Below, in pieces: positions 942-18,249 of a DNA stretch of 20,706 nt. The number at the start of each line of letters is the position of its first letter. The stretch's first letter is position 1. The translations under genes were made by a program, and so were the position numbers. This stretch comes from a virus, in IMG/VR virus record IMGVR_UViG_3300021424_000286, positions 1 through 20,706 of that record, one strand, 5' to 3'. The notes beneath the pieces are model-generated. The model was not told where the DNA came from and ran no database searches. It worked only from the letters and a program-made list of their open reading frames with translations.

Positions 942-949
942 TATTTATA
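942..949 (-). promoter_or_regulatory. T4-type late promoter box TATAAATA before the 195-aa gene
   Basis: The minus strand reads GTATAAATAACC here. The octamer TATAAATA is identical to the T4 late promoter consensus recognised by the gp55-type sigma factor. It overlaps the TAA stop of the 3174-aa gene and lies 23 nt before the ATG at 918, giving a very short leader. The function is inferred from the exact match and position. Confidence 0.7.
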
Positions 950-1106
950 CGATGCTCCAGTATCCGCCACTATTGATGGTAACCGTAGTTCCATTTGCAA
1001 TTGTGATTGGACCTGCGCTCATACAATTATCTCCATTAGCAACAATTACATTTTCTGCTACTGTATTACGATTGCGCTTGAAGATTCCGTAAGTATCAAT
1101 CCACTG
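945..1106 (-). other. C-terminal tip domain of the 3174-aa fibre
   Basis: Residues about 3122-3174 read 'DTYGIFKRNRNTVAENVIV', then 'CMSAGPITIANGTTVTINSG' and end in Y-W-S-I-V. I recognise the pattern N-x-M/A-S-A-G-P-I-T-I-x-x-G-x-x-V-T-(I/V)-x-x-G-x-x-W-x-I-V as a common C-terminal cap of marine phage fibre proteins. It probably terminates a beta-helical trimer. The precise function is unknown. Confidence 0.6.
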
Positions 1107-4100
1107 CTTATCCCCAGTTGCTCTCAGAACAGTTGTCTTCTGACCACTAGCGAGTGCTTCTGCTGCGTTGATATTAATACCACTCTTAGCTCTTACTTCA
1201 AGTGCGTAAGTTGTCTGGAAGTAATCGGTGCCACTATTTCCACCGAGCGTCATGGTGCCAGTATCAGTTAATGTGGCAACACAATTATCATTATCGGATC
1301 TCCAAACAAAATCATCTCCTGTTCTAAAGTATGTTGTGCCATCAGTAGCAAAGAAGAATCTTTGTTGGGCATCAGTCGAAGTGATCCAAACATTAGTTGA
1401 ACCTCCCAGGTACGGAAGCGTCAGTGCAGAGTAACCATCGAGCAGGTCAGCGTTCAGGTTGGTAACAACCGTAGTAGAACTAACCGTGAATGGTGCTGTT
1501 CCTGTAGCAACGCTAGATTCAAAGGTTGGAGATATCATCTTCACGTTAGCTGTAACATTACCATTTATGGCAATTGTTAAAGCATCAGTTCTAGTTGTTG
1601 GGAATAGTTGATTTCCATTACTGCTTGTTTGAGAAATTCTAAATAAACCACTCAACTGACCAATAGACCAGTGGGCAGTATCTATATCATGCAATTTGAT
1701 ACCAATACCATTACCAAAAGTTCTGCTTGCTACAGCATCACCAATACGCATCCATGGGGCGTTTTGATCCAATCCAAGAGCGTTAACATCATTTGCATCT
1801 GTTCCAGCATTAAGAAGTCTCAGAATTGCATCGGTTTGAACTGCTGCAGCATTACCAATAGAAACTTTTGATGTGGTGAACCTTACATTACCATAAACGA
1901 GGTTTGCAGCATTATATCCAAAATCATTTGTGTCATTACCAAAACGAAGATAACCAGAATTTGAATCTTGCTTACCTTTAACTGAGAGGGAGTTTGTTGC
2001 AGCCTTACCTACGGTAATACCATTAGCATCTGCAAGGTTGAGGATCGAAGTGCCTGTATTTGTCAGAGTAATTTGATCACCACTAAAATCATTAGCAGCA
2101 ATATCACCAGCTGATGTTCTCTTAACAATAGAACTATTGGTTGCAGTTTCTGATGGCTCAGCACCCTGCAGATAGCGTGCGTCCAACTGAGAAGCTGAAC
2201 CATCGTTACCAGAGTGCCATACAGTATTACCGTTAATAGTTACATCACCAGCATTAATTCTGAGCGTACCAGCACCATCAGTAGCAGTACCACCAGAGAC
2301 TCTGAATTGAACGTCATAGTTAGATGCCTGACCGCTAGATCTAAAATCAAATGTAGGAACCGAAGTAGTTCCAATTTGACCCAATTCAATACCAGCTCCA
2401 GTTGCGTTATCGTTAACTGCAAAGATCTGTGCAGAACCAGCGACTAATTCATTAGAAGAAGTAACAGTCCATCTTGTGCTTCCAGATGCACCAGGACCAA
2501 TCAGGTAGACATCTTTACCAGATTTTCCAGCAGTGAAGGTGCAGGATCCAGTAATAGTTGAATAAATTCTACCGTCATTTCCAGTACCTTGTACTGCACC
2601 ATTTGAATCAACAATTATTGTTCCAATATTCTGAGTTGCATTAGCATCTTCATATAATGTATAAGTTCCACTATTTGCGATGTTGCCACTTGGTCCAGTG
2701 ACTACATGGAAGTTTGGAATATAGAATTTAAACTTATTGCCCGTTCCAGCAACATAGAAGTTTTCCAGAACATACTTGTCTCTACCGAGAACTTCTGGAA
2801 TGAATGGATCTCCAAGGGTTCCGTGACCTCTTCTATCTCCAATATTGTGACCAGACTGATACCACAGACCCTGTTGACCGTCAAGAAGGTCTGCATCTAA
2901 TCCAGAAGAAGCACCATCATTATTAGATGACCAAATTTGATACCAAGAAGAATATGTTGTGGAAGTTCCACCACTATCACCACGGATCCAAAGATTGTTA
3001 TTATCTGTGAATCCAAGTTGAGTTACTGCTCTTGTGCTGGATGCAGATTTTCTTCTATATGTAAGGATACCTGCTTGGGTTCCACCATCACTCAGAGAAA
3101 CTGTACTGTTGTTTCTCAAATGTAGTTCGATACCAAGAGATGAAGCACTTGGAGCTGGGTTTGAAGTTACTGGAACTTCGTCATGCTTCAACAGAGCAGT
3201 GCTAGCTGATTCTCCGTTAATGCTGATGTTGTAAGTTCCCTGTGCAATACGAGCAGGATCAATACTTCCTTGAGTAAACAAACTTGCATCAACAAGATTT
3301 GCAACACTTAAAGTACCAAAAGCACCCTGAATAAATTCGGCAATCAGACCAGATCCAGTTCCTTGATCGAGACGAACTTCTCCACTATTGGTTACAATAA
3401 AACCAGCTTCTGTTTGGTTGGCAAGAGATTGATCACTCTTTCTCTTGCGGAATTTAGAAATACCATAGTTACCATACAGAGATGTACTTGTGGTATTTGC
3501 ATTTGCTTTTCTAACATCAATACTGATGTTGCCGTAACCACGATTGACTGTTCCCTTAACAGCAGTAAGAGTTGCTGCAGCAGATGGGGATCCGAGCTCA
3601 GTTGGAATAGTAACTGTAAAGTTACCGTTATAACCAGTTCCAGGGTCAGTTACTTGTGCTGCGGTAATGACACCATTAGTAACCGTGAAACTTGCTCTAG
3701 CTACATCATCGGAACTTACTGATACGTTACCACCAGCAAGAGAAAGATTCTGATAAACTTGAGTACCACTTTGAGGAGTATATCCAGTACCGCCACTTAC
3801 AATAGTGATGCTCTCGATGTATGTACTATCAGTAATTGAAGCACTAATTACGATTGCATCAGCAGTTTCTGGTTTGATTGATTGTAATGCATATTCGTAA
3901 GAAGAATCTCCACGGAGGAAAGTAAATGCGTTAGCAACTCCTCTAGATGCAAGACGTTGTGGATCAATTGTACCAGATACAATATTTGTGGCGTCAATAT
4001 TTGTAGAAGTAAGTTGAGTCCAGTTGGCAGCATCTGCCGCTGAAGTATTAACTACTCTAAGAATGTCTACGATTCTTTCTCTTTCTACGTTACCACTAGT

Positions 4101-7100
4101 ACTCGAAGGTGCGTTTGTGGTTACTGTATACTCGTTGGCATTATTGACAGCAACTACATAGAATCCATCTGGAGCAGTACCTGATGTAAAATTGAGATAG
4201 ACAAGATTACCATTTGCCAATCCATGACCAGACTCAGTTACAACAATAGTTGTGCTAGCTGTTTGTGAGTATGTACCAGTTCCAAGATTGGTTCCAGATC
4301 CATCAAGTACAAAGTCACCAGTATCAAACTTGATATTGTTTGCAATATCTAAGTATACTCTACCTTCAACAGCGGCAGAGATAGACGCATTAAATTGCGC
4401 TCCTCCTGGTGAGGTTGGAACAGTAATAACTGGGTTATTGTAATAACCTTTACCAATATTCGTGATGGTTACAGATATAACGCTTCCATTTAATACATTA
4501 GCAGTTGCAGCTGCTTGAATACCATTTACAGTATCATTTGGTGCGCTGATAGTCAGTGCAAAGTTGTTGGCATAAAATGCGCCAGCAACATCGATATCGT
4601 ACTCGTAAACAGCACCATCATTATACTCAGTGATAACTCCAGTAGCTCCTGTCGAACTACCATTTACGATTGCTGCATTCGTAAACGTATATGTATTATT
4701 TGGGGTGAATGTGATGTACTGAGAATCTAAATCATTTTCTAAGATGTAGGAAACTGCAATACCTTGAGTTGTGAATACCTGAGTTCCAGTTCCTTGTGAA
4801 GTCAAATTAATTGCAGTTCCAGTGCCAGCATCTGTTTCATTTGCAGCAAGTTTTATTGTACTTGCATTAACGACTATGGCATAGTAAGTGGATCCATTTG
4901 TAATACCACCGATAGAAGCTGTACCCTGAGTATAGATTAATCCATCGCCAGTTGTAAGTCCATGAGCGGCAATTGTAATTTCTTCAGTTGAAGTATTTAC
5001 ATCAGCTGGAGCAACGTTAAATACCTGTGTGGTTGTCTCAATCGCAATATCTCCAGCAACAACGTCTTCAAGAGCAAGACGTTCTTGAGTTGAGTTAACT
5101 GATGTGATATTGAATGGGCGCAGTGCTGGGATCTGATCAATATTGATCTTACCAGTTGCAGTTAACTGAACAAGTGCAGAAGGAACTGCGTTTGTTGAAT
5201 ATGGTTGATTGAGATATGGTCCAAGGTTGTTGGAGATATAATCCCTAACTGCAGCCTGAGTAGGTAGCAGAGCATCTGATGCAAATGCACCACCAAGATT
5301 ATCATCTGCAGAGAATCCATTAATGGTAATATCCCCACCAGTAATCTTAATTGATGTCAGTTCTGAAATTGCAACAGTACCAACAAAGCTGATAGCACCA
5401 GTTCTATTGAAGATAGTAACAAAATTACCTACCTTAAAGTCACCAAATTCGTTAGTACCCGATGTATATACCTGACCATACTCTTCTTCTCTTGCCTCAA
5501 ATGCAGATCCTCTACCAAATCCACCGTTCTGTGGTAGAGCAGCATAACTGTTTCCAGATCCAGCAAATTCCCAAGTATGAGAAGATGAGTTAACTACCGA
5601 TGGTCTATGTAATTTAATCGTCGCATTTACCAGTGGTGTGCTGGTTCCGCCAGCAATATTTCCGAGTGAATATGCATACCTGGTTCCAGTTGAGGTATTT
5701 GTAACATCAAGACCCTGATTGCTTACAATTGTAGCAGTGATCTGAGATCCTGGAGTTCCAGAAACATCTTTCGTTTGTAAGATAATAAATTCAAGAGCTG
5801 GATTAGTATTTTCATATCCATCAATTTTAATAATATAATCTTCAACTGGGATATTCGTTAACGCTGGTCCACTGATTCTAATCTCTTGCCTTCCAGTTTG
5901 TGCACCATTTCCATCTACCTGGTTGGTGATGGAAAGAATTTGAGCAATATCAAATGAGTATGGTTCTGAGCGATAACCAGTGGCACGCAGAGCATATGTA
6001 CCAAAGTTAGACGCAGAGTTTGTTACAGATGCATAACCACCAGACTGGCAAACGATACCGTCCTGACAGAAGATGGCAAACACAGAAACAAGTTGTGTAT
6101 AACCATCATTTAGAATGTTGTATGCAGTACCACCGAAAGAGATAATGGTAAATGCCGACGCAACCATCGACTTACCTTGTGGATCATAGAGAGCTACAGT
6201 ATTGCCTTGACCATCTATTTTCAATCCTGGACGAGGAACGTTTGGAGTTGATACCTTAGCTCCGTCGATCTCACAACCAGATCCACCTTCAAATGAAATC
6301 AGAGAAGAGTTTTGAATATATGGAGATGCTTCAATAATTGGAAGATCTAAGAAAGTATTGACAAGAGCGAAGTTATATGCACTAGATCCAAGTTCAGTAA
6401 GAATTGGATCTGGATATGTAATGTTAGTAATAGCAGAATTGTTTAAGATTGCACTGTCTAAAGCAGTCCAAAGAGTTGTAAGTGCAGAAGTTACGTTAGC
6501 ACACTCTGGAGCATTAGAATCTACCGTTACTGCACTATTTGCAACTGGTACAATCTGGGAGAATCTTCCATCATCAAGATGTGAATTGATTGACTTCTTA
6601 GCAAGAAGTTTTGCATATGCATAAACTTGTCTTGAGAAAGCAACCTCATTAGCAATAAAGTTTTGAACTCCAGCACCAACGTACTTATTAGCCGCTTCTG
6701 CAGTTGCTGAGTTACCAGTATAGCGAAGGTCATACTGCCATGCTCTCAAAACTTTGACGATATCATCGATACACTGCTGATCTCCATCTGCATAGGTTCT
6801 TGTTATGCCAGTGAGATTTCCTGGTGATCCAGTGCTACCAATTGCTTGAGTGACAATAGCGGTCAGAGTAGTGATTGTTGATGCTACATCCTGACAAGAT
6901 GGATTTTGAATATCAAGTGTAATGCTTGTATCTTTAACCTGAGTGTATGCACCGAGGTTATAAGTTGTAAATGCAGAACTGAAGGTCTCATTACGCATCG
7001 CTGCAATAGCAAGATCTCTAGCATAGTTGAAGACAATTACTGACTGGTTCTCTTCTCCAACTACATGAGCTCCATCAATATAGTATTTGGCAGCATCATA

Positions 7101-10100
7101 AACTTGATCATTACCACCAAAAGTTAAGTTATATGAGAGTGCTTTTAAGAAGTCAACTGTATCATCTTTGCAAGATTGCTTACCAGTTGGAATTGTAAAT
7201 GATTGCTCAGCAACCATTCTTTCAACTGCCATTTCTGCAATCATTACAGCGTTAGCAAGAATCAGAGATGAAGAATCTGCATAACGATCTGCTCTTGGTT
7301 TGCTGCCAGGAGTTACATGTGGAAGTGGAGTGGTGAACGTTACAGTTCCACTTTCTCCGCTATTTGCTAGGCTTGCAAGATTAATTGTAAGAGTTCTATA
7401 GTCTGGGGTATCTGCTACCTGATAATTACCGTCTGCGAGAGCTCCACTCCAATTAAAACTATATGTTTGCAGAGCGTATCCTGCATGACCCAGGGGGGTG
7501 GTTAAAGTGAGAGTTTGACCACTGATGCTATATGATCCAGATCTTGTATTTGCAGAGATGCTTGAGTAAGAAGTTCCATCAATAGAAATCTGAGTTCCTC
7601 TTGTGCTTGAGGAAGTATGATGGGACTTAATTGCTGCATATGCCTCTTCTGCGATAAACTCTTGGTTTACCTTAATAGCCTCTGCACCATCTCTATAACG
7701 ATCAGTTTGATTTACTGCAGTAAATCCATATGGAGAGTTTCTAAGAGATGCAAGAACATAGTTGTTTGCCGCTACAACTTGCTGATCACCAGCAACATCA
7801 ATAGCAGTTCCAAAACGAGAATATGAACCCCTTACAACAAAAGCAATTGAGAAACCATCTGGTCTTTCAATTCTATGAGTAATATACTTTCTTCCGTTCA
7901 GATCTTCGATGTTATCTTGAACACTAAATGTTCCAGTTCTAGTTGCCGAGTCTGGTGCATTCAGTGTAAATCTGACTGTTTGTGTTCCAGAGCTATAAGA
8001 ACCTCTAGCGATACCCAGGACAGTTCCTGCAGGAAGAGTTGGGAAAGTAGTGCCAGATGTGAATGTATCACAGTGATAAACTTTAGTTGTTGCTCCACCA
8101 GTAGTGAATGTAAATTTGAGACCAGCTTCTCCCAGAGTAGTTAAGTTGCCCCAGAATGCATTAACTAATGTTGTATCGACTCCAGTAATTGTACACTGGA
8201 TTGTTGTTCCATTTTGAGTATATGAATATGCTGCTGATGCACCAAAGTTAATTGTTGAACTTTGGAATCCATAGAGATAAACTTCCTGACCAACTTCATA
8301 ATCATGATAAGTTGTTGATCCAAGATTAACAATTGGACCAGAATATGTCTGCTGAGTTGTCAGAGAAGTATTGATATTGGCAATAGCAAGAACTCTGGTA
8401 TTCAGATCAAATCTTTGGAATCCCTTTCCAGCAGATGTAATATCTACAGTGATTGGATCATCTTGACCAGATGCATTTTTTCTAGTTGCGTTTGCCTGAC
8501 TTGTTGCAATTCTAACCCAATTAGAATTTTCTACATAAACAGCATATGTTGTACCGTCAGAAAAACCACCAATAGCGCCCATCTTACTGGCACGATAGAT
8601 GACCTGATCTCCAGTTTCAAATTGGTGATTGAGAATATAGATATTGTTTGACTCTGGCATTACCTTGCCAAAGGTCAGATAGTGAATTGTATTTGATCCT
8701 ACAGCAGTAATATCAACTAAACCCTGCTTTGTAGTTGAAGATGCGTCAAAGTTTGCATTTGCAAAGCTATCGTAAAGTTCGAAAGTATTTGCAGTTAAGA
8801 CACGAACATAATATACAGAGTTGTGGACTAATCCTGGAACGCTAGTATTACCATCATTATCATAATGTACAGCAGCACCAGTGAATAATCCGTGACCATT
8901 AACGGTCAATACATCAGTTGTAGCATTTACATTTGATGCATTTAAGAGGAGAGTTTCTCTCTCAGAATCAAATGTGTGCTGATAAATTTGGTTAGAAATA
9001 GTTTCAAGCTCTGGTCTCAGAGACTCTACGTCAACAAGAGCAGCATTAGGAGAAGTTGGTGGGTTATTTGGATCATTTACAACTTGACCTAAAGTTGGAG
9101 CATAGTAAATTGTATCTACACTAGAAAATACATCATTATTTCCAGATGTAACTAAAACGGTTACGCTACCAGTTGAATACGGAGAAGCTACTGGTCCAGT
9201 AAATGTTACTGCCTTAACTATAGCAGTGAGAGATCCTCCCTCATTTGTAAGTGCAAAACCAGGGAGAAGACTTGTGTTATTGCCAGTATTATCTCTAAAC
9301 GTTAACAGTTGAATGTTTTCTCCCTGGAACTTCTGTCCAGGAACTGCTGGAATTTGCTTTACTTCTGGCTCGTAGTAGAGTCGCTGCTTATCGTCAAATA
9401 CGAAAGCATATTTCCAAGTATAAAGCGTTGCACTATTGGGATCGTTTGGATTCTGTAGTGCGTCTCTAAACGTAACTCCATTAATATAAGTTTCGTTAGA
9501 TGCCTTAACCATGTGACGATCACGGTTAGATGGTCTAACGACTACACGACGTAGGTTATCACCAATAAGAGAACAGTTTCTTGGCAGTGAGATTGGGTTA
9601 TCTTCTAAGTATTCTCCACCAGAAACGATAATCGAAACATATTCATCACTTGGATCTGGAGTTGCCTTCTGCAATCCATAAGCAACTTGAGCTGCCTTCT
9701 TAATGGTTCTAAGAGGTCTAGCTGCCGATCTACCATCATTATCATCATCACCAATAGTCGATGAAACGTAAACACGTCCACCAGTATCGTTAGTAGCAAC
9801 TCGATACACGAAGTCTGTAGTAGCAATACGTCTCGATTGGTCACTCAGAGGAGGAGTATCTGCAGTTGGATGGAAAGTTTGCAGGTATGTTGGACTCGTT
9901 ATATCAGTGTCCTGGAAGTTAAGTAAATTGGGAGCACGAAGATTCAGTGCTGGGTTAACGATTGTACCAATATCCAGATTGATAATCGTTGCAGTATCTG
10001 AAATGATCGAACGAGTCGTTCTGATTTGACCTTCAACGTCCAGTTCGAATTGTGGATTTGTATTATTAATACCAATACGAACATCACCAAGATTATCCTT

Positions 10101-10469
10101 AGTTACAATAAGAGCACTGGATTCTGATACTCCACTTCCAACAGTGATGCCAAGCTTATCACTAGCATTAATGACTAAGGAACGTCTAATTCTATATGCA
10201 AGTGTATTTCCTGCAGTAATTGTACCACTTGCAGCATCTGTAAAAGTAAATGAATCTGAGTTGACTACAGTGATTGTATAGTTGCCACTTGTAGCTCCAC
10301 CAGAGTTTATATCAATCTCAAGTTCTTCGGTATCGATGAATCCGTGCCCAACTGAAATTACTGTTACAGTAGTGCCAACTCTAAAATAAGTGGCATTTAC
10401 CCAACTTCCAGTGGCAACTTTACCTGAACCTTCAATTCTCTGTTGTTCAGAATTAATTCTCAGACTCAT
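945..10469 (-). CDS. Giant modular tail fibre / adhesin (3174 aa)
   Basis: The largest gene of the window, an extracellular virion fibre. Modules, with approximate residues: 28-95 a 'GHG' beta repeat resembling the FCCH-like repeats of phage proteins; 228-345 the start of a DUF1565/right-handed beta-helix domain ('VYVSSTIGDDDNDGR', 'RPLRTIKKAAQ', 'GVTF'); 345-920 a beta-rich insertion with two more HGL-type repeats (about 510 and 608); 920-1345 an alpha-helical duplicated block with conserved Cys; 1380-1530 the resumed beta-helix ('SPYIQNSSLISFEGGSGCEIDG', then 'GYTQLVSVFAIFCQDGI'); 1625-1695 a segment homologous to one in the 2401-aa protein; 1826 and 2073 further HGL repeats; about 2003, 2222 and 2273 GxGY repeats; 2525, 2763 and 3006 LDA-x-x-L-x-G fibre-shaft repeats with 'NTVWHSGNDG'; 3122-3174 a tip domain ending 'GGYWSIV'. 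The start has a good GGAG 7 nt upstream. It follows the 177-aa gene by 17 nt. A fibre role is well supported; the receptor is unknown. No lytic or glycosidase active site was identified in the helix. Confidence 0.9.
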   Translation of the reverse strand: MSLRINSEQQRIEGSGKVATGSWVNATYFRVGTTVTVISVGHGFIDTEELEIDINSGGATSGNYTITVVNSDSFTFTDAASGTITAGNTLAYRIRRSLVINASDKLGITVGSGVSESSALIVTKDNLGDVRIGINNTNPQFELDVEGQIRTTRSIISDTATIINLDIGTIVNPALNLRAPNLLNFQDTDITSPTYLQTFHPTADTPPLSDQSRRIATTDFVYRVATNDTGGRVYVSSTIGDDDNDGRSAARPLRTIKKAAQVAYGLQKATPDPSDEYVSIIVSGGEYLEDNPISLPRNCSLIGDNLRRVVVRPSNRDRHMVKASNETYINGVTFRDALQNPNDPNSATLYTWKYAFVFDDKQRLYYEPEVKQIPAVPGQKFQGENIQLLTFRDNTGNNTSLLPGFALTNEGGSLTAIVKAVTFTGPVASPYSTGSVTVLVTSGNNDVFSSVDTIYYAPTLGQVVNDPNNPPTSPNAALVDVESLRPELETISNQIYQHTFDSERETLLLNASNVNATTDVLTVNGHGLFTGAAVHYDNDGNTSVPGLVHNSVYYVRVLTANTFELYDSFANANFDASSTTKQGLVDITAVGSNTIHYLTFGKVMPESNNIYILNHQFETGDQVIYRASKMGAIGGFSDGTTYAVYVENSNWVRIATSQANATRKNASGQDDPITVDITSAGKGFQRFDLNTRVLAIANINTSLTTQQTYSGPIVNLGSTTYHDYEVGQEVYLYGFQSSTINFGASAAYSYTQNGTTIQCTITGVDTTLVNAFWGNLTTLGEAGLKFTFTTGGATTKVYHCDTFTSGTTFPTLPAGTVLGIARGSYSSGTQTVRFTLNAPDSATRTGTFSVQDNIEDLNGRKYITHRIERPDGFSIAFVVRGSYSRFGTAIDVAGDQQVVAANNYVLASLRNSPYGFTAVNQTDRYRDGAEAIKVNQEFIAEEAYAAIKSHHTSSSTRGTQISIDGTSYSSISANTRSGSYSISGQTLTLTTPLGHAGYALQTYSFNWSGALADGNYQVADTPDYRTLTINLASLANSGESGTVTFTTPLPHVTPGSKPRADRYADSSSLILANAVMIAEMAVERMVAEQSFTIPTGKQSCKDDTVDFLKALSYNLTFGGNDQVYDAAKYYIDGAHVVGEENQSVIVFNYARDLAIAAMRNETFSSAFTTYNLGAYTQVKDTSITLDIQNPSCQDVASTITTLTAIVTQAIGSTGSPGNLTGITRTYADGDQQCIDDIVKVLRAWQYDLRYTGNSATAEAANKYVGAGVQNFIANEVAFSRQVYAYAKLLAKKSINSHLDDGRFSQIVPVANSAVTVDSNAPECANVTSALTTLWTALDSAILNNSAITNITYPDPILTELGSSAYNFALVNTFLDLPIIEASPYIQNSSLISFEGGSGCEIDGAKVSTPNVPRPGLKIDGQGNTVALYDPQGKSMVASAFTIISFGGTAYNILNDGYTQLVSVFAIFCQDGIVCQSGGYASVTNSASNFGTYALRATGYRSEPYSFDIAQILSITNQVDGNGAQTGRQEIRISGPALTNIPVEDYIIKIDGYENTNPALEFIILQTKDVSGTPGSQITATIVSNQGLDVTNTSTGTRYAYSLGNIAGGTSTPLVNATIKLHRPSVVNSSSHTWEFAGSGNSYAALPQNGGFGRGSAFEAREEEYGQVYTSGTNEFGDFKVGNFVTIFNRTGAISFVGTVAISELTSIKITGGDITINGFSADDNLGGAFASDALLPTQAAVRDYISNNLGPYLNQPYSTNAVPSALVQLTATGKINIDQIPALRPFNITSVNSTQERLALEDVVAGDIAIETTTQVFNVAPADVNTSTEEITIAAHGLTTGDGLIYTQGTASIGGITNGSTYYAIVVNASTIKLAANETDAGTGTAINLTSQGTGTQVFTTQGIAVSYILENDLDSQYITFTPNNTYTFTNAAIVNGSSTGATGVITEYNDGAVYEYDIDVAGAFYANNFALTISAPNDTVNGIQAAATANVLNGSVISVTITNIGKGYYNNPVITVPTSPGGAQFNASISAAVEGRVYLDIANNIKFDTGDFVLDGSGTNLGTGTYSQTASTTIVVTESGHGLANGNLVYLNFTSGTAPDGFYVVAVNNANEYTVTTNAPSSTSGNVERERIVDILRVVNTSAADAANWTQLTSTNIDATNIVSGTIDPQRLASRGVANAFTFLRGDSSYEYALQSIKPETADAIVISASITDSTYIESITIVSGGTGYTPQSGTQVYQNLSLAGGNVSVSSDDVARASFTVTNGVITAAQVTDPGTGYNGNFTVTIPTELGSPSAAATLTAVKGTVNRGYGNISIDVRKANANTTSTSLYGNYGISKFRKRKSDQSLANQTEAGFIVTNSGEVRLDQGTGSGLIAEFIQGAFGTLSVANLVDASLFTQGSIDPARIAQGTYNISINGESASTALLKHDEVPVTSNPAPSASSLGIELHLRNNSTVSLSDGGTQAGILTYRRKSASSTRAVTQLGFTDNNNLWIRGDSGGTSTTYSSWYQIWSSNNDGASSGLDADLLDGQQGLWYQSGHNIGDRRGHGTLGDPFIPEVLGRDKYVLENFYVAGTGNKFKFYIPNFHVVTGPSGNIANSGTYTLYEDANATQNIGTIIVDSNGAVQGTGNDGRIYSTITGSCTFTAGKSGKDVYLIGPGASGSTRWTVTSSNELVAGSAQIFAVNDNATGAGIELGQIGTTSVPTFDFRSSGQASNYDVQFRVSGGTATDGAGTLRINAGDVTINGNTVWHSGNDGSASQLDARYLQGAEPSETATNSSIVKRTSAGDIAANDFSGDQITLTNTGTSILNLADANGITVGKAATNSLSVKGKQDSNSGYLRFGNDTNDFGYNAANLVYGNVRFTTSKVSIGNAAAVQTDAILRLLNAGTDANDVNALGLDQNAPWMRIGDAVASRTFGNGIGIKLHDIDTAHWSIGQLSGLFRISQTSSNGNQLFPTTRTDALTIAINGNVTANVKMISPTFESSVATGTAPFTVSSTTVVTNLNADLLDGYSALTLPYLGGSTNVWITSTDAQQRFFFATDGTTYFRTGDDFVWRSDNDNCVATLTDTGTMTLGGNSGTDYFQTTYALEVRAKSGININAAEALASGQKTTVLRATGDKQWIDTYGIFKRNRNTVAENVIVANGDNCMSAGPITIANGTTVTINSGGYWSIV
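5385..5597 (-). repeat. Segment of the 3174-aa fibre paralogous to one in the 2401-aa fibre
   Basis: Residues about 1625-1695 include 'WEFAGSGNSYAALPQNGGFG', an acidic E-rich stretch, then 'GQVYTSGTNEFGDFKVGNFV' and 'RTGAISFVG'. The 2401-aa protein has the matching order: F-E-Y-I-G-T-G-S, G-G-R-V-Y-Y-T-S, G-N-F-R-V-G-D-L-F and L-G-N-V-T-F. In both it follows the split beta-helix. Confidence 0.6.
6435..7712 (-). repeat. Duplicated alpha-helical, Cys-containing block inside the 3174-aa fibre
   Basis: Residues about 920-1345 contain three pairs of related segments. Pair 1: 'DRYRDGAEAIKVNQEFIAEE' and 'DRYADSSSLILANAVMIAEM'. Pair 2: 'SCKDDTVDFLKALSYNLTFG' and 'QCIDDIVKVLRAWQYDLRYT', each followed by a G-N and an A-A/N-K-Y-(I/V) motif. 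Pair 3: 'SCQDVASTITTLTAIVTQAI' and 'ECANVTSALTTLWTALDSAI'. The predicted structure is mainly helical, in contrast to the rest of the protein. One Cys is kept at the same place in both copies of pairs 2 and 3. The pairing suggests internal duplication of a C..C helical hairpin unit. Confidence 0.7.
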
Positions 10470-11040: not shown

Positions 11041-11048
11041 TATTTATA
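11041..11048 (-). promoter_or_regulatory. T4-type late promoter box TATAAATA before the 177-aa gene
   Basis: The minus strand reads GGTATAAATAACCTAAGG. The octamer is a perfect match to the T4 late promoter. It overlaps the TAA stop of the 2401-aa gene (codons AAG GTA TAA) and lies 20 nt before the ATG at 11020. An AAGG follows, 12 nt before that ATG. It would drive the 177-aa and 3174-aa genes. Confidence 0.72.
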
Positions 11049-14000
11049 CCTTGACCTTTGTGGTTGTATATCTACCAGTGAAAGATGTTGACGATGTTGC
11101 CGCACTTGATTTTGCGATGGAAATATTGACATTATTTCCAACAACTGTCACACTTGCATCCACAAGATCATTACTAGAAGTTACTGAGTTGGTAATAGTT
11201 GCATATGCAGTAGTACCAGCTGCAGCACAAACTGTGGTTACTTCGAGCATGTGTACTTTACCATCATTACTCTCAATTGTTACAAGTGTCTTAGCACCCT
11301 TATACGCTGTCTTATTGAACTGAACGATGGTTGCGTTTGCTCCGAAGGAAGAGAGTTGACCACCCTCTACTCTACAATCATTCAGTTCCATGAATGTAGC
11401 AGTGCTATCAAATACGGTCAGATATGACTCAGTGCCAGCATTCCAACCACGATTGATCTTCCACGCAGCTTCTGCGCCATTTGCATCAAGCGAAAGGAAT
11501 GGTTTTGAATCGAGTTGAGTTATATAATCTTGTTGAAGAATATCAAGTCTGGTAAATGCAGGAGTTGTATTTGTAATAGTTGCAACTGGGAAAGTTACAT
11601 CATTTGCTGGAGTAGTCCCACCGAGGAGAGAACCTGCAATTGTGATAATTTCACCTACCTCATAATCGGATCCTGGAACAACAAGACTTACACTTAGAAT
11701 AGATCCAGCACCATCAGTTATAACTGTGAATGTAGCTCCAGATCCTTCAAATTGGGAAGTTGATGTAACCGTAGATGTTTGCGATGGTGTATAAACACCA
11801 GCTCCAGAAGTTACTGTTCCGATAGTAGCAATTTCGCCCAGAACTGGAACCGACTTGAATCTAAGTCCATTTGTAATTTCTACGTCTTTTCTAGATCTTA
11901 CTCTTAAAACTGATGATCCAAGTGTGCGGACATCCAAAGGATCAGATCCAAGAGAAACTCCGTCAAGAACTAAAGTTCCACTAGTCTCAAAAGTTCTTGC
12001 TGTATAAAGCTTGAATTTGTCTTGTACAATATCAAGACTATTGATGCCCTGATTGTAGAAGAAGAATGTATCTTCATTACTTCCAGGGGAAAGCTCGGTA
12101 AGGATATATGTATCCTGGTTTACGTCACGGACTCCACCAAGAGAAACGAAGTCTTGTCCATTATATCCTTCAAATTGTTGTTGTTGAGTGTTGAATCTAA
12201 TACCACCTGTTTGTCGATCCCCAGATGTAGGTCTTTGGTTGGTATTACCAGAAGGAACAACGAACATCGCTGTTGAATCAATCTTAACATTCTTACCAAC
12301 TTGGGGTTTAATGACAATACCAGCACCTTCGATATCGGTTACTGTGATTGTCTTACCTGAACCAGAACCAATTGTTGCAGAATTTAATGTGATAGTATCT
12401 CCTTCGTTATATCCAGCTCCGCCAGAATAAACAGAGATTGTTGTTATGTCTCCACCAGCAACAGTGACGTTGAAAGTTGCATCAGATCCACTACCATTAG
12501 TTGTGGAAGTTACATTTGTGTATGTACCAGTGGTAAATCCAGTTCCAGTTCCAGTAGCTGTTACTGTGATAATTTGACCAAATGAAGTGGTAGCAGTTGT
12601 CCCAATATTTGAAATAATGTTATCTTCTAATTGTAAATTTGCATTTACCTTTAAATTTCCCTTAATTGTAGTATTACCACTTTCAGTATCTACTCTGAAT
12701 GTTTCTGAGGATCCATCGGTAATTAAGAAATCTTTATTCAGACCACCAGTTAATTGAAGATTTCCTTCCCCTAAAGGAATAAGAGTTATATCTACATCTT
12801 GATTTGATCCAATAGCTTCAATTGATGCAGCATTAGTAATTCTAAGACCACTTGTAAATGTTCCAATATCTACTGATTCTCCAATAGAATCTACTTTAAA
12901 AAATGGACTTACGGTTACAAAAGAAGAATCAACAATTAAATCTTTTATTGTTCTAAGTTCAGTTGAACTTAAAGAGAGAGATTTTGTACCAGAGATAGAA
13001 AATCCTAGAACATCACTCGAATCTCTATACAAACCAGTTGTAAGAGAGTTTTCAAATTTTAAAGATGGAGACGCTGCAGATCCATTTTGAAGATCAATAA
13101 GTGCATTATTGATCTGATTGTTGGAACCATTCGCAGTAAGATTATTACTTAATGTTGTAGTTCCATTTACTGTTAAACTTCCAGTAATTGAAGCAGTTGA
13201 TAAAATATTTAAAGATCCACTTGCGGTTATATTTCCAGTTGTTGTAAGACCAGAAGTTCCCAAAGAAGAACTATTTGATCCAGATGAAGTTGTAAAAGTA
13301 CCAGACGCTGAAATATTGTAAATATCTGATACTATTGCTCCATCATTTTTCAATTCAATAATTGATTCAGTATTAACTGTATTTGCTAATAGGGATAAAT
13401 TTGATCCTGATCCTAATCCAGCAAAATTCTGTGGATCAAACAATATTGTTTGATTTGGGTAGAATGTATTACCGCCACTAGTAACTACTGCGGAACTTAC
13501 ATATCCAACCTCAGTAACTGTAAACTGGAATCCAGCTCCGCCACCAGATCCAACATTAGAGTCTGAAACAGATAATATGTCTGCAACTGCATATCCCGAT
13601 CCAGCCGATTGAATATTCGTTACTTGACTAATACCAGTATCATTACCATCAATAGTATAAGAGAATCCACTTCCTCCCCCTATCAATCCATTCGGTACAG
13701 AAACAACATCTCCAGCTTTGTATCCAGATCCCTGTGTTGCAAAACTAACACTACTTACGGAACCAGCAGAAGCGGTGACATTAATTTGTCCACCACTTCC
13801 ATACGATCCAACAGTTCCAGAAATAATGTCAATATATGCATCTTCCGACATGCTTCTTCCATGAACTGTGCATGTATAAAATACAGTATTTGAAGAAGTA
13901 GCAGCGGTTGGTTTGATTATTATATCGACAAATGCACCTGAACTTCCAGCTGCCCCAACAGTCTTGACTACAAAATTCGGATCAGTAGACGTAGTGCTAT

Positions 14001-17000
14001 CTAAAACAAATGGATGATTAGATACGGTTGGACTTGACAAATCGAAACGATATGTATTTCCTTTTATGAGGGTAAGATCTGGAGATTCTTGCCCATTAAT
14101 AAAATATCTATTGGGTGATATTGGGGTAACCTGCAAAGTTCCAGATCCACCACTAGTGAATGTAACTATATTACCTTGACTAAATGTTCCTCCAGATATT
14201 GTTGCTGGATCAACAAATGCAAAGTTAGACCCAACATAGGTTACTGTTGCAGTAACTCCAGAACCATTATTTGCAGTATCACCAACATTAATTGTTCCAG
14301 TAATTCCAGAACCAGACATATCAAGTTTCGTTCTTGGTGCAACCGTTACTGTATATGTTGTTGTTGGAGTGTTGAATAAGTCAATTTGTTGATATGTCCC
14401 ATTTGTATATCCACTTCCAGCATTAGTTATAGTTCCAAAGAAACCACGAACAAAGAAAGTTGCTATTGCTCCACTTCCAGTTCCACCAGTAAACGCTACT
14501 GCTGGATATGTACCAGCTCTATATCCAGATCCATTTGAAAGAATATTACCAGCGACAGGCAATACCGTAATAGAGGCTTGAGCATCTGATCCAGCTCCAC
14601 CAACAATTGATACTGTTGGTGCTGTTAAATAACCAGATCCAGGAGAAGTTAAAGTTATTTCCGAGATAGACCCAGTTTCAGAATCTAAGGTTGCATCAGC
14701 AACAGCATCTATGTCTGGATTTCCAGAAAACGTAACAAATGGAACTTTTGAATAACCATAACCATTATAATTTAAAGTTATAGTATTCAGTTCATATTTT
14801 AGTGCATCTACTGTAGCTGCAGCTCCAGTTCCAGAGTCGAGTGCTTGTGGTGTGATTATCAGAGTTGGCACTGAAGAAAATTCTCCAGCTCCAGAAGTAT
14901 TAATTTCTCTAATTTCACTACCAATATTAACTGTGAATGATCCTGGAGATGCTGGAGTTTCACTTAAGGTAATGTTGATTGGAATACCAACGATATAACC
15001 AGTTCCAGGATTATTGATTGTAAAGCTAGTAATACTTCCACCACTTACATTTGGAGTAATTAATGCAGTAGTACCTCTTATATAATGTTGTTCTTGTGTT
15101 AGTGGAGGTGTTAAAGTTATAACAGGACCCCCAGGAGAGCCTGATAACTGAATCGTATCATTATCAAGATCTCTATTTCTTACATAATAAGTATTTCCAC
15201 TAGTCAATCCACCAATACTTGAATTGCCATTTGAATCATAAATTACTGCATCGTTATTTTTGAAATGTACAATTGTTAAATCTATTGTGTTTCCAGTAAT
15301 TAAACTTGCATCAAATATATTATTTGGTGGATCTGGAACAGTGGCGGTTGGACTAACATATCCAGATCCTCCACTGGAAATTCCAATAACTCCAATTCCT
15401 CCTCCAGATCCTCTTACTACAGAAAATGAAACCGATCCAGATACAGGTGCTTGTAAAGTTGTTACTGTTGGAGATAGTGTATAAAGTGATCCAGGGTTTG
15501 TGATTGTTATTGTGGAGATTAATCCAGTACTCTTTAAAGTTGCAGTTGCAGTTGCGGGAGAATCTGGATTTGATAATATAGCTGCGCTATAAATTCCTGG
15601 AGTATATCCAGTTCCAGCATCAGCAATAGTTATAGTATCTAATGACTTTTTATTAACTCCAATATTTTTATTTGAAAAATATCCATAAGAGGAAACACCA
15701 ACTTGAACATTATTTCCAAGATAGAAATTAGTTTGTCCTACTGCTGATTTGCCAAGTGAAAAGACTTTGCCAGAATCAAAGAAAATTTTCTCTGGCGAGA
15801 TAACCTCAGCATTCAAAACAATATCTTCATCCGCTGATGGATCAAGAATAATTTGACCACTGTTGGAGCTTAGGGTATTGCCAGAAAGTCTGAGGTTGCC
15901 AGTTTCAATATAAGCTGGATATAAATTAGTTGTACCAGTTCCATCTGACAGAGTAATATTTGCGGCGCTCTGAGCATTCTGTGTAACTGCCGAGAAGGTA
16001 ACATTACCAAGCTCTTGATCTACAAGGAATAAATCACCTACTCTGAAGTTACCAGATTGGTCCTGAGAAGTATAGTAAACCCTACCACCGTTTAACTCAT
16101 TAACTTCATTAGATTGTACAACACCAGCAGTATTATTGGTAATATCTGATCCAGTTCCAATATATTCAAAATTAACTGCAGTGAGCCTCAAACTAACGCC
16201 AAGACCATCCGCAACTACACCTTTGTTGCCATAAAGTGCTGCACAACCAATAGAGCGAAGTTCTGCACCAAAATCAGTGTAGTCTGCAAGATTGATTACA
16301 GTTGCAGAATCACCACCAGATGAACGGATATCTTTTGTGGATCCAGAGGAATCTAAGATAGTTGTTGAGCTATTAGCTCCGTCAAGATGAAGAAGGAGGA
16401 CAGTATAAAGATCCTCTACAAACGCTGCAGCAGGCGCTGTGAAATTGGACGTATATCTGCCAGTTCCTTTTGATATTCTGACTTCATCAATATATCCATT
16501 CATGACATATCCTGCATTCTGCAGGCTGCCAATTCTTAAAGTTTTTGTACTTCCGTAGTTATTGTTGTCAGTAAAAGTAGCTCCTTCTTGGACACCATTT
16601 ACAAACAATTTGGTTTGGTTACCAGTTCTTGAAGCAGCAATATGATACCAAGTATCTGCTACAAGTGCATTTCCTGCTGTAATCGCAGTAGTCGCTCCAT
16701 AAGAGAATCTTAGTTTTCCATCGGATCCAAGGTAGAGATATGGTGCAACTTCAGTACCCGCAGCTGCTCTAAATTCAAAAAGACCTTGATTTGCGTTGAC
16801 TACATTAAATCTAGCAAAACACTCAATAGTAAAATCACCAAGTCCGAATCCGAAATTTGGATCGGTAACGTATGAGATAAAGTCGCCAGTTCCATCAAAG
16901 ACAAGTGATGATGTTCCGAATTGATATTGAGCAGTAGACAACTTTGCGTCACCAGTTGTGACTGCAGTCTTAGCGTTACTTATAGTGGAACTAAACTCTC

Positions 17001-18249
17001 CAGTTCCTTTATTGGTGAGATAAACATATGTACCATCATTCTCATCGATGGTTCCGTATGCTAATGCTTTTTTATATTGGATATTGCCAGATGTAGTTGC
17101 AGAAGCAGCAGCAGTTAACACAAATGTATTAGTTGCTGCGCTAGAAACAGTAAAGAATCCACCAACTGCAGTTCCAGTGAGATAATCTGCAGCTACTATA
17201 TCTCCGTTAGAAAGACCATGTGAATTACTTGTAACTGTAACAGTAGTGCCAGACTGAGAATATGTTCCAGTTACAAAGTTGTTATTTAATTCATAAATTA
17301 CTTCAGAAGCAGAGAATGTACCAGATACTCCTCCCAACTTCAGACGTGTCCTACCAGCGCCTGCAACACCAGTCGCTCCAGAAACACCCGTAATCGCTTC
17401 TGATGCAAAATAGAAGAAGCAATTCAGTGCCTCAATTCTAATACCATTAGTTAAATATAAACCAATTTGATTTGGTGTGAAGAAAGTACACTCATTAAAA
17501 AGAACTGCAGCTTCATAGGAGTTTGATGATGATACTGCACCATCAAGTTTTGCTCCACGACCAGCGTCTCCTTGAGCATAACCATATGGATCACTTAAAG
17601 AAGTTACACTACCCCTATTAAGTACAGTGACTCTTTCTACATATGAGCTACGAGTAGAATCCCAGTTTGATGCACAGATAAATGCATATCCACGATCATT
17701 ACCAGAATCATATTGAATGCCACCAATTGTTAAATCTGAAACAATAGTATCTCCATTCAAAACAAAACCATTTTGTGATTTTGTTGATGGTGATGGTTGA
17801 ATTAAAACAGATCTAAGACCAGCACCCTTAACTGTAACTCCATCTGGAACTGTTAGGGGAAAAGTCTCTGTATATGTACCAGCAGAGATATGAATAGTAT
17901 CGCCAGAAGTTGCTGTGCTGAGAGCTTTAGCAAGCGTTAAGAATGGAGTATCTGGGTGCTTTCCATTAGCACCAGTGCTTCCTAAAAGTGTTGAGTCGGA
18001 ACCATTTTTTGAGACATAGTATGTTTGCCCAGGACCATTCGTAATGTCCGTAGCAAGCATAGTAGTTGTAACCTCACCCGTATTGGGTTTTTGGTTAGCA
18101 ACTTCAACTATATTTGCTCCATTTCTTACATAGATCTTTCGATCAGCAATATTAACCGCTACTTCACCATCTGCGAGGTTAGAAGTCGTCGGTACTACTG
18201 CCGCCGTCGTCGATCTTTTGAGTTTGATTCTCGTTGATTCCGCTGCCAT
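11044..18249 (-). CDS. Giant modular tail fibre with LamG lectin and cupredoxin-like domains (2401 aa)
   Basis: A giant virion fibre. Order of modules, with approximate residues: 1-55 an Mtd_N-like attachment domain ('IKLKRSTTAAVVPTTSNLAD', G-E-V-A-V, R-K-I-Y-V); 72-300 a DUF1565/pectin-lyase-like beta-helix ('TYYVSKNGSDS', 'DTIHISAGTYTE', 'GVTVKGAG'); 326-395 an HGL/FCCH-like repeat; 430-620 a LamG/concanavalin-like lectin domain; 660-755 a segment shared with the 3174-aa fibre; 873-1296 a run of GxGY beta repeats; 1380-1478 a cupredoxin-like domain; about 1507 and 1550 two more GxGY units; 1650-1900 fibre-shaft repeats ('SPSLKFENSLTTGLYR'); about 1943 a GxGY unit; 1997-2057 the common phage motif 'QRPTSGDRQTGGIRFNTQQQ' with F-E-G-Y-N-G; about 2197 a GxGY unit; 2254-2401 a C-terminal beta domain. 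The start is fixed by the Mtd_N-like N-terminus and creates a 71-nt overlap with the preceding coiled-coil gene; a weak GAGA lies 8 nt upstream. A fibre/adhesin role is firm; glycan binding by LamG is likely, and metal binding is a prediction. Confidence 0.9.
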   Translation of the reverse strand: MAAESTRIKLKRSTTAAVVPTTSNLADGEVAVNIADRKIYVRNGANIVEVANQKPNTGEVTTTMLATDITNGPGQTYYVSKNGSDSTLLGSTGANGKHPDTPFLTLAKALSTATSGDTIHISAGTYTETFPLTVPDGVTVKGAGLRSVLIQPSPSTKSQNGFVLNGDTIVSDLTIGGIQYDSGNDRGYAFICASNWDSTRSSYVERVTVLNRGSVTSLSDPYGYAQGDAGRGAKLDGAVSSSNSYEAAVLFNECTFFTPNQIGLYLTNGIRIEALNCFFYFASEAITGVSGATGVAGAGRTRLKLGGVSGTFSASEVIYELNNNFVTGTYSQSGTTVTVTSNSHGLSNGDIVAADYLTGTAVGGFFTVSSAATNTFVLTAAASATTSGNIQYKKALAYGTIDENDGTYVYLTNKGTGEFSSTISNAKTAVTTGDAKLSTAQYQFGTSSLVFDGTGDFISYVTDPNFGFGLGDFTIECFARFNVVNANQGLFEFRAAAGTEVAPYLYLGSDGKLRFSYGATTAITAGNALVADTWYHIAASRTGNQTKLFVNGVQEGATFTDNNNYGSTKTLRIGSLQNAGYVMNGYIDEVRISKGTGRYTSNFTAPAAAFVEDLYTVLLLHLDGANSSTTILDSSGSTKDIRSSGGDSATVINLADYTDFGAELRSIGCAALYGNKGVVADGLGVSLRLTAVNFEYIGTGSDITNNTAGVVQSNEVNELNGGRVYYTSQDQSGNFRVGDLFLVDQELGNVTFSAVTQNAQSAANITLSDGTGTTNLYPAYIETGNLRLSGNTLSSNSGQIILDPSADEDIVLNAEVISPEKIFFDSGKVFSLGKSAVGQTNFYLGNNVQVGVSSYGYFSNKNIGVNKKSLDTITIADAGTGYTPGIYSAAILSNPDSPATATATLKSTGLISTITITNPGSLYTLSPTVTTLQAPVSGSVSFSVVRGSGGGIGVIGISSGGSGYVSPTATVPDPPNNIFDASLITGNTIDLTIVHFKNNDAVIYDSNGNSSIGGLTSGNTYYVRNRDLDNDTIQLSGSPGGPVITLTPPLTQEQHYIRGTTALITPNVSGGSITSFTINNPGTGYIVGIPINITLSETPASPGSFTVNIGSEIREINTSGAGEFSSVPTLIITPQALDSGTGAAATVDALKYELNTITLNYNGYGYSKVPFVTFSGNPDIDAVADATLDSETGSISEITLTSPGSGYLTAPTVSIVGGAGSDAQASITVLPVAGNILSNGSGYRAGTYPAVAFTGGTGSGAIATFFVRGFFGTITNAGSGYTNGTYQQIDLFNTPTTTYTVTVAPRTKLDMSGSGITGTINVGDTANNGSGVTATVTYVGSNFAFVDPATISGGTFSQGNIVTFTSGGSGTLQVTPISPNRYFINGQESPDLTLIKGNTYRFDLSSPTVSNHPFVLDSTTSTDPNFVVKTVGAAGSSGAFVDIIIKPTAATSSNTVFYTCTVHGRSMSEDAYIDIISGTVGSYGSGGQINVTASAGSVSSVSFATQGSGYKAGDVVSVPNGLIGGGSGFSYTIDGNDTGISQVTNIQSAGSGYAVADILSVSDSNVGSGGGAGFQFTVTEVGYVSSAVVTSGGNTFYPNQTILFDPQNFAGLGSGSNLSLLANTVNTESIIELKNDGAIVSDIYNISASGTFTTSSGSNSSSLGTSGLTTTGNITASGSLNILSTASITGSLTVNGTTTLSNNLTANGSNNQINNALIDLQNGSAASPSLKFENSLTTGLYRDSSDVLGFSISGTKSLSLSSTELRTIKDLIVDSSFVTVSPFFKVDSIGESVDIGTFTSGLRITNAASIEAIGSNQDVDITLIPLGEGNLQLTGGLNKDFLITDGSSETFRVDTESGNTTIKGNLKVNANLQLEDNIISNIGTTATTSFGQIITVTATGTGTGFTTGTYTNVTSTTNGSGSDATFNVTVAGGDITTISVYSGGAGYNEGDTITLNSATIGSGSGKTITVTDIEGAGIVIKPQVGKNVKIDSTAMFVVPSGNTNQRPTSGDRQTGGIRFNTQQQQFEGYNGQDFVSLGGVRDVNQDTYILTELSPGSNEDTFFFYNQGINSLDIVQDKFKLYTARTFETSGTLVLDGVSLGSDPLDVRTLGSSVLRVRSRKDVEITNGLRFKSVPVLGEIATIGTVTSGAGVYTPSQTSTVTSTSQFEGSGATFTVITDGAGSILSVSLVVPGSDYEVGEIITIAGSLLGGTTPANDVTFPVATITNTTPAFTRLDILQQDYITQLDSKPFLSLDANGAEAAWKINRGWNAGTESYLTVFDSTATFMELNDCRVEGGQLSSFGANATIVQFNKTAYKGAKTLVTIESNDGKVHMLEVTTVCAAAGTTAYATITNSVTSSNDLVDASVTVVGNNVNISIAKSSAATSSTSFTGRYTTTKVKV
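13816..14112 (-). other. Cupredoxin-like domain of the 2401-aa fibre
   Basis: Residues about 1380-1478. Seen: 'YFINGQESPDLTLIKGNTYR' at the N-terminal strands, 'SNHPFVLDST' with H1412, then 'VFYTCTVHGRSM' with C1460, H1463 and M1467, then 'DAYIDII'. Plastocyanin-type proteins use His, Cys, His, Met in this order. The 48-residue spacing from first His to Cys and the C-x2-H spacing are close to plastocyanin (47 and C-x2-H). The H-to-Met gap is one shorter (x3 instead of x4). Fold assignment is fairly confident. Actual copper binding is unproven. Confidence 0.68.
14360..15640 (-). repeat. GxGY beta-repeat block of the 2401-aa fibre
   Basis: Residues about 873-1296 hold eight units with the core (N/S/A)-(P/G/A)-G-(S/T)-G/L-Y followed by a T/V-rich strand: 'ADAGTGYTPGIY', 'TNPGSLYTLSP', 'SSGGSGYVSP', 'NNPGTGYIVG', 'NYNGYGYSKVP', 'TSPGSGYLTAP', 'LSNGSGYRAGTYP' and 'TNAGSGYTNGTY'. 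Unit spacing is irregular, roughly 30-90 residues. At least four more copies lie downstream in the same protein (near 1507, 1550, 1943 and 2197) and three in the 3174-aa fibre. Confidence 0.75.
15985..16272 (-). repeat. Segment of the 2401-aa fibre paralogous to one in the 3174-aa fibre
   Basis: Residues about 660-755: 'ELRSIGCAALYGNKGVVADG', 'NFEYIGTGSD', 'GGRVYYTSQDQSGNFRVGDL' and 'ELGNVTFSA'. The later half matches residues 1625-1695 of the 3174-aa fibre in order and spacing. Confidence 0.6.
16390..16962 (-). other. LamG / concanavalin A-like lectin domain of the 2401-aa fibre
   Basis: Residues about 430-620. Seen: 'FGTSSLVFDGTGDFISYV', 'LGDFTIECFARF', 'ADTWYHIAASRTGNQTKLFV' followed by N-G-V-Q-E-G, 'GYIDEVRISKGTGRYTSNF' and L-H-L-D-G. 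This is the full order of LamG_3/concanavalin-like domains (S-L-x-F-D-G ... F-T-I-E-x-F ... W-Y-H-I-A ... G-Y-I-D-E-V-R-I-S). It probably contacts a glycan on the host surface. Confidence 0.85.
17065..17274 (-). repeat. HGL (FCCH-like) repeat in the 2401-aa fibre, with relatives in the 3174-aa fibre
   Basis: The sequence 'GTYSQSGTTVTVTSNSHGLS' followed by N-G-D-I-V and a G-x-F-x-V strand matches 'GTYSQTASTTIVVTESGHGL' plus A-N-G-N in the 3174-aa protein (near 4262-4095). Looser copies in that protein lie near 10388-10185, 8951-8760, 8648-8475 and 5006-4815. Such short beta domains in phage proteins are sometimes annotated as FCCH-like. Confidence 0.65.
17350..18036 (-). other. Beta-helix (DUF1565/pectin-lyase-like) segment of the 2401-aa fibre
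   Basis: Residues about 72-300. 'YYVSKNGSDS' followed by 'HPDTPFLTLAKALSTA', 'DTIHISAGTYTE', 'DGVTVKGAG' and 'NGDTIVSDLTIGG' gives the standard opening of a right-handed parallel beta-helix. Later rungs ('LFNECTFFTPNQIGLYLTNG', 'IEALNCFFYFASEAI') continue it. No conserved acidic catalytic cluster is recognisable, so it may be only a scaffold or a binding surface. Confidence 0.7.

Follow-up and report, generated by a model that had tools for sequence, protein, structure and literature searches.

The locus raises the question of whether a structural protein of a virus carries a cupredoxin-like domain with a full set of type-1 copper ligands and, if so, what such a site might do in a virion. The window (the whole stretch of 20,706 nucleotides analysed here, i.e., the 20.7-kb IMG/VR virus record IMGVR_UViG_3300021424_000286) contains a minus-strand ORF (18249..11044) that encodes a protein of 2401 aa, whose relevant features are the following:

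11044..18249, minus strand: 2401-aa baseplate-wedge / tail-fibre protein (ORF call, PHROG 32294, P-HM1/P-HM2 orthologues)
16468..16875, minus strand: LamG-like (concanavalin-A-type lectin fold) domain, aa 459-594 (Pfam PF13385, E 8.4e-19, above cut-off)
about 13798-14160, minus strand: cupredoxin-type domain including its N-terminal strand, aa ~1364-1484 (profile, AF2 model, Foldseek)
14014..14016, minus strand: His1412, first type-1 ligand position, just before strand 51-55 of the model (kept in 103/104 family representatives)
13870..13872, minus strand: Cys1460, thiolate ligand position, at the end of model strand 89-97 (kept in 103/104)
13861..13863, minus strand: His1463, second His ligand position, in the loop following model strand 89-97 (kept in 103/104)
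13849..13851, minus strand: Met1467, axial ligand position, in the same loop as His1463 (one residue later than in most relatives)

The carrier protein and the predicted fold of the domain

The best full-length family of the 2401-aa protein is PHROG 32294, named 'baseplate wedge subunit' (2271 bits over residues 5-2401), and the protein is 47-48% identical over 99-100% to proteins of the Prochlorococcus phages MED4-213, P-HM2, and P-HM1. The P-HM1 and P-HM2 orthologues are annotated as gp7, the baseplate wedge initiator. These assignments point to the baseplate wedge, and the label of phage tail fibre in the original prediction was therefore imprecise. The LamG-like domain suggests that the protein is exposed at the surface. 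The protein is adjoined by a 3174-aa tail fibre protein (PHROG 5342; window positions 945-10469, minus strand), in which we looked for a cupredoxin domain and found none. The cupredoxin-type domain lies at the same place in the orthologues of P-HM1, P-HM2, and MED4-213. In MED4-213 (L121; HQ634174.1 35134-41430), a genuine break or a sequencing error immediately upstream of the domain divides the orthologue into separate ORFs.

The four proposed ligands, H1412, C1460, H1463, and M1467, are all present at the places predicted, and both the His-to-Cys distance of 48 and the C-x2-H motif were confirmed. The full spacing is C-x2-H-x3-M, as in the three orthologues, versus C-x2-H-x2-M in 95 of 103 family representatives. 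The protein contains only 8 Cys, 10 His, and 8 Met; the chance expectation of the pattern H-x35..60-C-x2-H-x2..4-M is 3.6e-5 per protein of such composition, and it was seen in none of 20,000 shuffles of the sequence. The family profile A2 matches the domain with an E value of 1.1e-29. The location originally given (13816-14112) holds, but its limits were too narrow, because the N-terminal strand (TLQVTP) is part of the domain.

An AF2 model of aa 1364-1484, built with 60 sequences, reached a pLDDT of 86 and a pTM of 0.81. In this model, His49 lies just before strand 51-55, Cys97 ends strand 89-97, and His100 and Met104 are located in the loop to strand 109-113, so that the predicted structure has the cupredoxin placement, i.e., the Cys at the end of the penultimate strand and the His and Met in the loop that leads to the last strand. 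When the full-domain model was compared with the PDB using Foldseek, rusticyanin occupied 9 of the 11 top ranks, with weak scores (E 0.005-0.04, TM-scores 0.36-0.49). The other two were PAD4, whose N-terminal domain is of the cupredoxin type, and the ranks below rusticyanin included the cupredoxin CupA and multicopper oxidases. The expectation of a cupredoxin fold draws support from the strand topology and from best matches that are mostly rusticyanins, none of the PDB matches reaching E<0.001. Among predicted viral structures there were 30 matches at E<0.001, including cyanophage fibre-like and baseplate connector proteins. An Ig-like fold, indicated by a model of aa 1381-1475, was judged very improbable because that model lacks the first strand and the full domain shifts to rusticyanin.

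Homology to copper proteins and conservation of the ligands

A single-sequence search of the PDB with the domain gave no significant match and its Pfam matches were at chance level, a failure that we attribute to the divergence of the domain. The domain has no match to the Copper-bind family (PF00127), neither PF00127 nor the plastocyanin family TIGR02656 was matched above its curated cut-off, and no other Pfam family passed its cut-off on the domain. Family members scanned against Pfam and NCBIfam gave weak matches, those to copper-protein families having E values of 0.013 and 0.029 at best. With profile A1 against the PDB, plastocyanins ranked first (E 0.05), and profile A2 alone did not reach copper proteins significantly. 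A PF00127 search of eight phage genomes revealed true plastocyanin genes in five of them, as well as sub-threshold matches within large structural ORFs that constitute a second phage subfamily, A3. The A2 and A3 profiles aligned with each other with their ligands in register (hhalign probability 97.9, E 3.3e-13), and A3 in turn matched rusticyanin (4.5e-7), plastocyanin (4.9e-6), and amicyanin (7e-4) in the PDB. As judged from sequence profiles, the domain is homologous to copper proteins of solved structure, a relationship reached via the bridging subfamily A3. Direct comparison of the tail family with the phage plastocyanin by hhalign was not significant (probability 3.5), suggesting that the domain is a cupredoxin and not a plastocyanin.

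To follow the ligands through the family, 300 distinct uninterrupted domains were collected by iterated profile search and reduced to 104 representatives (<80% identity). Among these, conservation is highest in exactly four columns, the M, H, H, and C ligands themselves, each kept in 103/104, followed by a Tyr two residues before the Cys (102/104) and then by a Phe and a Pro at 88%. In the sole exception (L052), the first His is replaced by E, the Cys by S, the second His by N, and the Met by I. When every representative containing a ligand-bearing search word was removed, all four ligands were still found in 97 of 98. The complete set is present in 297 of the 300 unique sequences; one of the three incomplete domains is cut by its contig end, and another (L148) has lost the first His and the Met in an ORF that ends just after. 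It had been proposed that homologues freely losing the ligands would speak against a metal site, and they do not: 103 of 104 keep all four, and the lone exception lost all of them together.

The sequences compared are about 26-45% identical to the domain in the 2401-aa protein, and silent codon changes are frequent at the ligand sites (CAT/CAC 61/42 and 69/34 for the two His, TGT/TGC 63/40 for the Cys), which points to old lineages in which selection, and not recent shared ancestry, has kept the residues fixed. On this codon evidence, the ligand set is under purifying selection. The site has also been lost elsewhere. Remote paralogues in structural proteins of 3.2-7.1 kaa (L440, L441, L445, and L447-L450) retain none of the ligands, L440 reading 'SGTYLDF ... 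YYYF' in place of the ligand-bearing motifs. In addition, gp10-like proteins (L008, L015, L018, L052, and others) have two cupredoxin-type domains each, the second with an insert of ~65-70 residues between the His and Cys strands. In these insert-bearing copies the His is often kept and the C-x2-H often lost, although some are complete, suggesting that the module would also work without the full site in some places. Hence, the site is usually either kept whole or lost whole, and the interrupted gp10-like copies form a partly decaying class.

Spread of the module among marine phages

Other phages have the domain too: it is one copy of a module that is spread among marine phages and recurs in several types of their baseplate and fibre proteins. 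A search with the domain alone retrieved 58 phage records (cyanophages, pelagiphages, and Methylophilales phages) and 53 IMG/VR loci, and its sister types retrieved more relatives, at least 595, at least 570, and 286. The hosts of these phages include Prochlorococcus, Synechococcus, Pelagibacter, and Methylophilales, and up to six matches occur in one phage genome. The C-terminal domain of the cyanophage gp9-type 'baseplate wedge tail fiber connector', matched in 337 phage records, belongs to this domain family and has all four ligands (e.g., L300-L379; S-CAM22 KU686207.1 70177-70413).

When cellular genomes were scanned, the narrow domain family gave no relatives; only the bridging subfamily A3 has cellular ones, in marine Flavobacteriaceae and other genomes. 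Domains of this second subfamily also occur in S-H9-1 (MW117966.1 77761-78084) and S-BM3 (OQ319121.1 142074-142385), in proteins annotated as subtilisin-like / S8 peptidases. Separately, a 1023-aa ORF of a groundwater Chloroflexi (L409) contains about eight tandem cupredoxin domains, most of them with C-x2-H-x2-M.

The domain family is large and apparently undescribed. Within the open-access literature searched, no publication on phage-tail cupredoxins came up under the terms tried. Cupredoxins as such are already known; what appears to be new is their setting, with a complete type-1 site, kept by selection, in baseplate and fibre proteins of phages and in several copies per genome.

Possible functions and comparison with known systems

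Conservation, strand topology, and the profile bridge together support the original prediction of a cupredoxin-like domain with a full type-1 ligand set, and we consider it highly probable that it is a cupredoxin (a Greek-key beta-sandwich) whose His-Cys-His-Met set is intact and under selection. The type-1 site of the cupredoxin superfamily has a high affinity for copper, and metal binding makes the sandwich more stable. Extrapolating from sequence, the domain in the virion is probably a copper-binding one, although copper as the metal, and the stiffening, sensing, and redox roles named in the original prediction, go further than these results. A point against it is that cells export their cupredoxins and load them with metal in the periplasm; a phage protein assembled in the cytoplasm would have to acquire its metal at a later stage. 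In the mechanism that we propose, the host cytoplasm would be the place where the protein is synthesised and assembled, in its apo form, and its copper would come from seawater or the host envelope, at lysis or thereafter. Once bound, the metal would lock the Cys/His/Met loop to the first-His loop, riveting a surface-exposed adhesion or spacer domain and keeping the module rigid, possibly helped by adhesion. We hold this reading as a whole, from cupredoxin module and apo assembly to late copper uptake and a metal-locked adhesion/spacer domain, with reasonable confidence. Whether the main role lies in structure or adhesion, and not in electron transfer, is an evenly balanced judgement. Photosynthetic electron transfer is unlikely as a common role, because the family is also found in phages of Pelagibacter and Methylophilales.

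The strongest competitor, which we regard as unlikely, is that the site binds metal in order to act on the host surface, as a redox- or copper-responsive trigger or as a metal-bridged receptor contact, as a copper counterpart of the 'Ferrojan horse' fibres, which are proposed to carry iron. Iron-binding fibre domains have been proposed in phages (PMC11705849). The module recurs in host-facing baseplate proteins, including the gp9-type connectors, and in fibres, and the 2401-aa protein also carries the LamG-like domain; however, the 104 representatives show no conserved surface beyond the ligands and the core (the next positions being Y, F, P, and D), and the hosts are diverse. It is likewise a speculative, rather doubtful extension that marine T4-like baseplates and fibres carry several copper-loaded cupredoxin domains whose copper occupancy or redox state controls fibre stability or the infection trigger.

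Somewhat less likely still is that the cupredoxin site has been repurposed for another metal (Zn, Ni, or Co) or for a non-metal hydrogen-bond or thiol cluster. The short Met spacing of the family, different again in the 2401-aa protein, could be read in this way, and assembly in a copper-poor cytoplasm would favour non-copper metals. Nevertheless, amicyanin is a true blue copper protein with the same C-x2-H-x2-M spacing and was itself matched by A3, and an invariant Met is expected for copper, not for zinc. A degenerate cupredoxin fold that keeps its ligands by chance or common descent only is very improbable: paralogues without any ligands do exist, but exactly these four residues are conserved at such low identity, with silent codon change at the same sites. 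An ordinary Ig-like tail-fibre domain, which the aa 1381-1475 model matched best, is equally implausible, as the full-domain model retrieves rusticyanin and other copper proteins and the profiles also reach copper proteins.

If the metal-locked cupredoxin reading is true, copper would contribute to tail structure or function in some of the ocean's most abundant viruses, and, should copper control a trigger or stability, there would be a metal-dependent step of ocean phage infection so far undescribed. The domain can be expressed and judged by colour alone, and it offers a test bed for a periplasm-type metalloprotein built in the cytoplasm within a virion. It also gives a hint of function for PHROG families named by position only (32294, 677, 693, and 30742) and may be relevant to virus-metal interactions in the sea, beside the iron hypothesis.

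Compared with rusticyanin, plastocyanin, and amicyanin, the domain is alike in predicted fold class, in topology, and in H..C-x2-H..M order, and it shares the aromatic residue before the Cys as well as the profile homology via the bridging subfamily. It differs from them in being internal to a 2401-aa virion protein, in lacking a PF00127 match above the cut-off, in its C-x2-H-x3-M spacing, and in a first His that is followed by Pro-Phe. The petE-type plastocyanin of cyanophages (L380-L384) belongs to the same phages and the same superfamily; unlike the tail domain, it is a small electron carrier in its own right and begins with a hydrophobic leader. The proposed 'Ferrojan horse' fibres share the idea of metal in fibres, whereas their fold and metal would be unrelated. 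A further known counterpart, from the same domain family, is the C-terminal domain of PHROG 677 / cyanophage gp9, which has the full ligand set and differs in its carrier protein, and whose annotation makes no mention of a cupredoxin.
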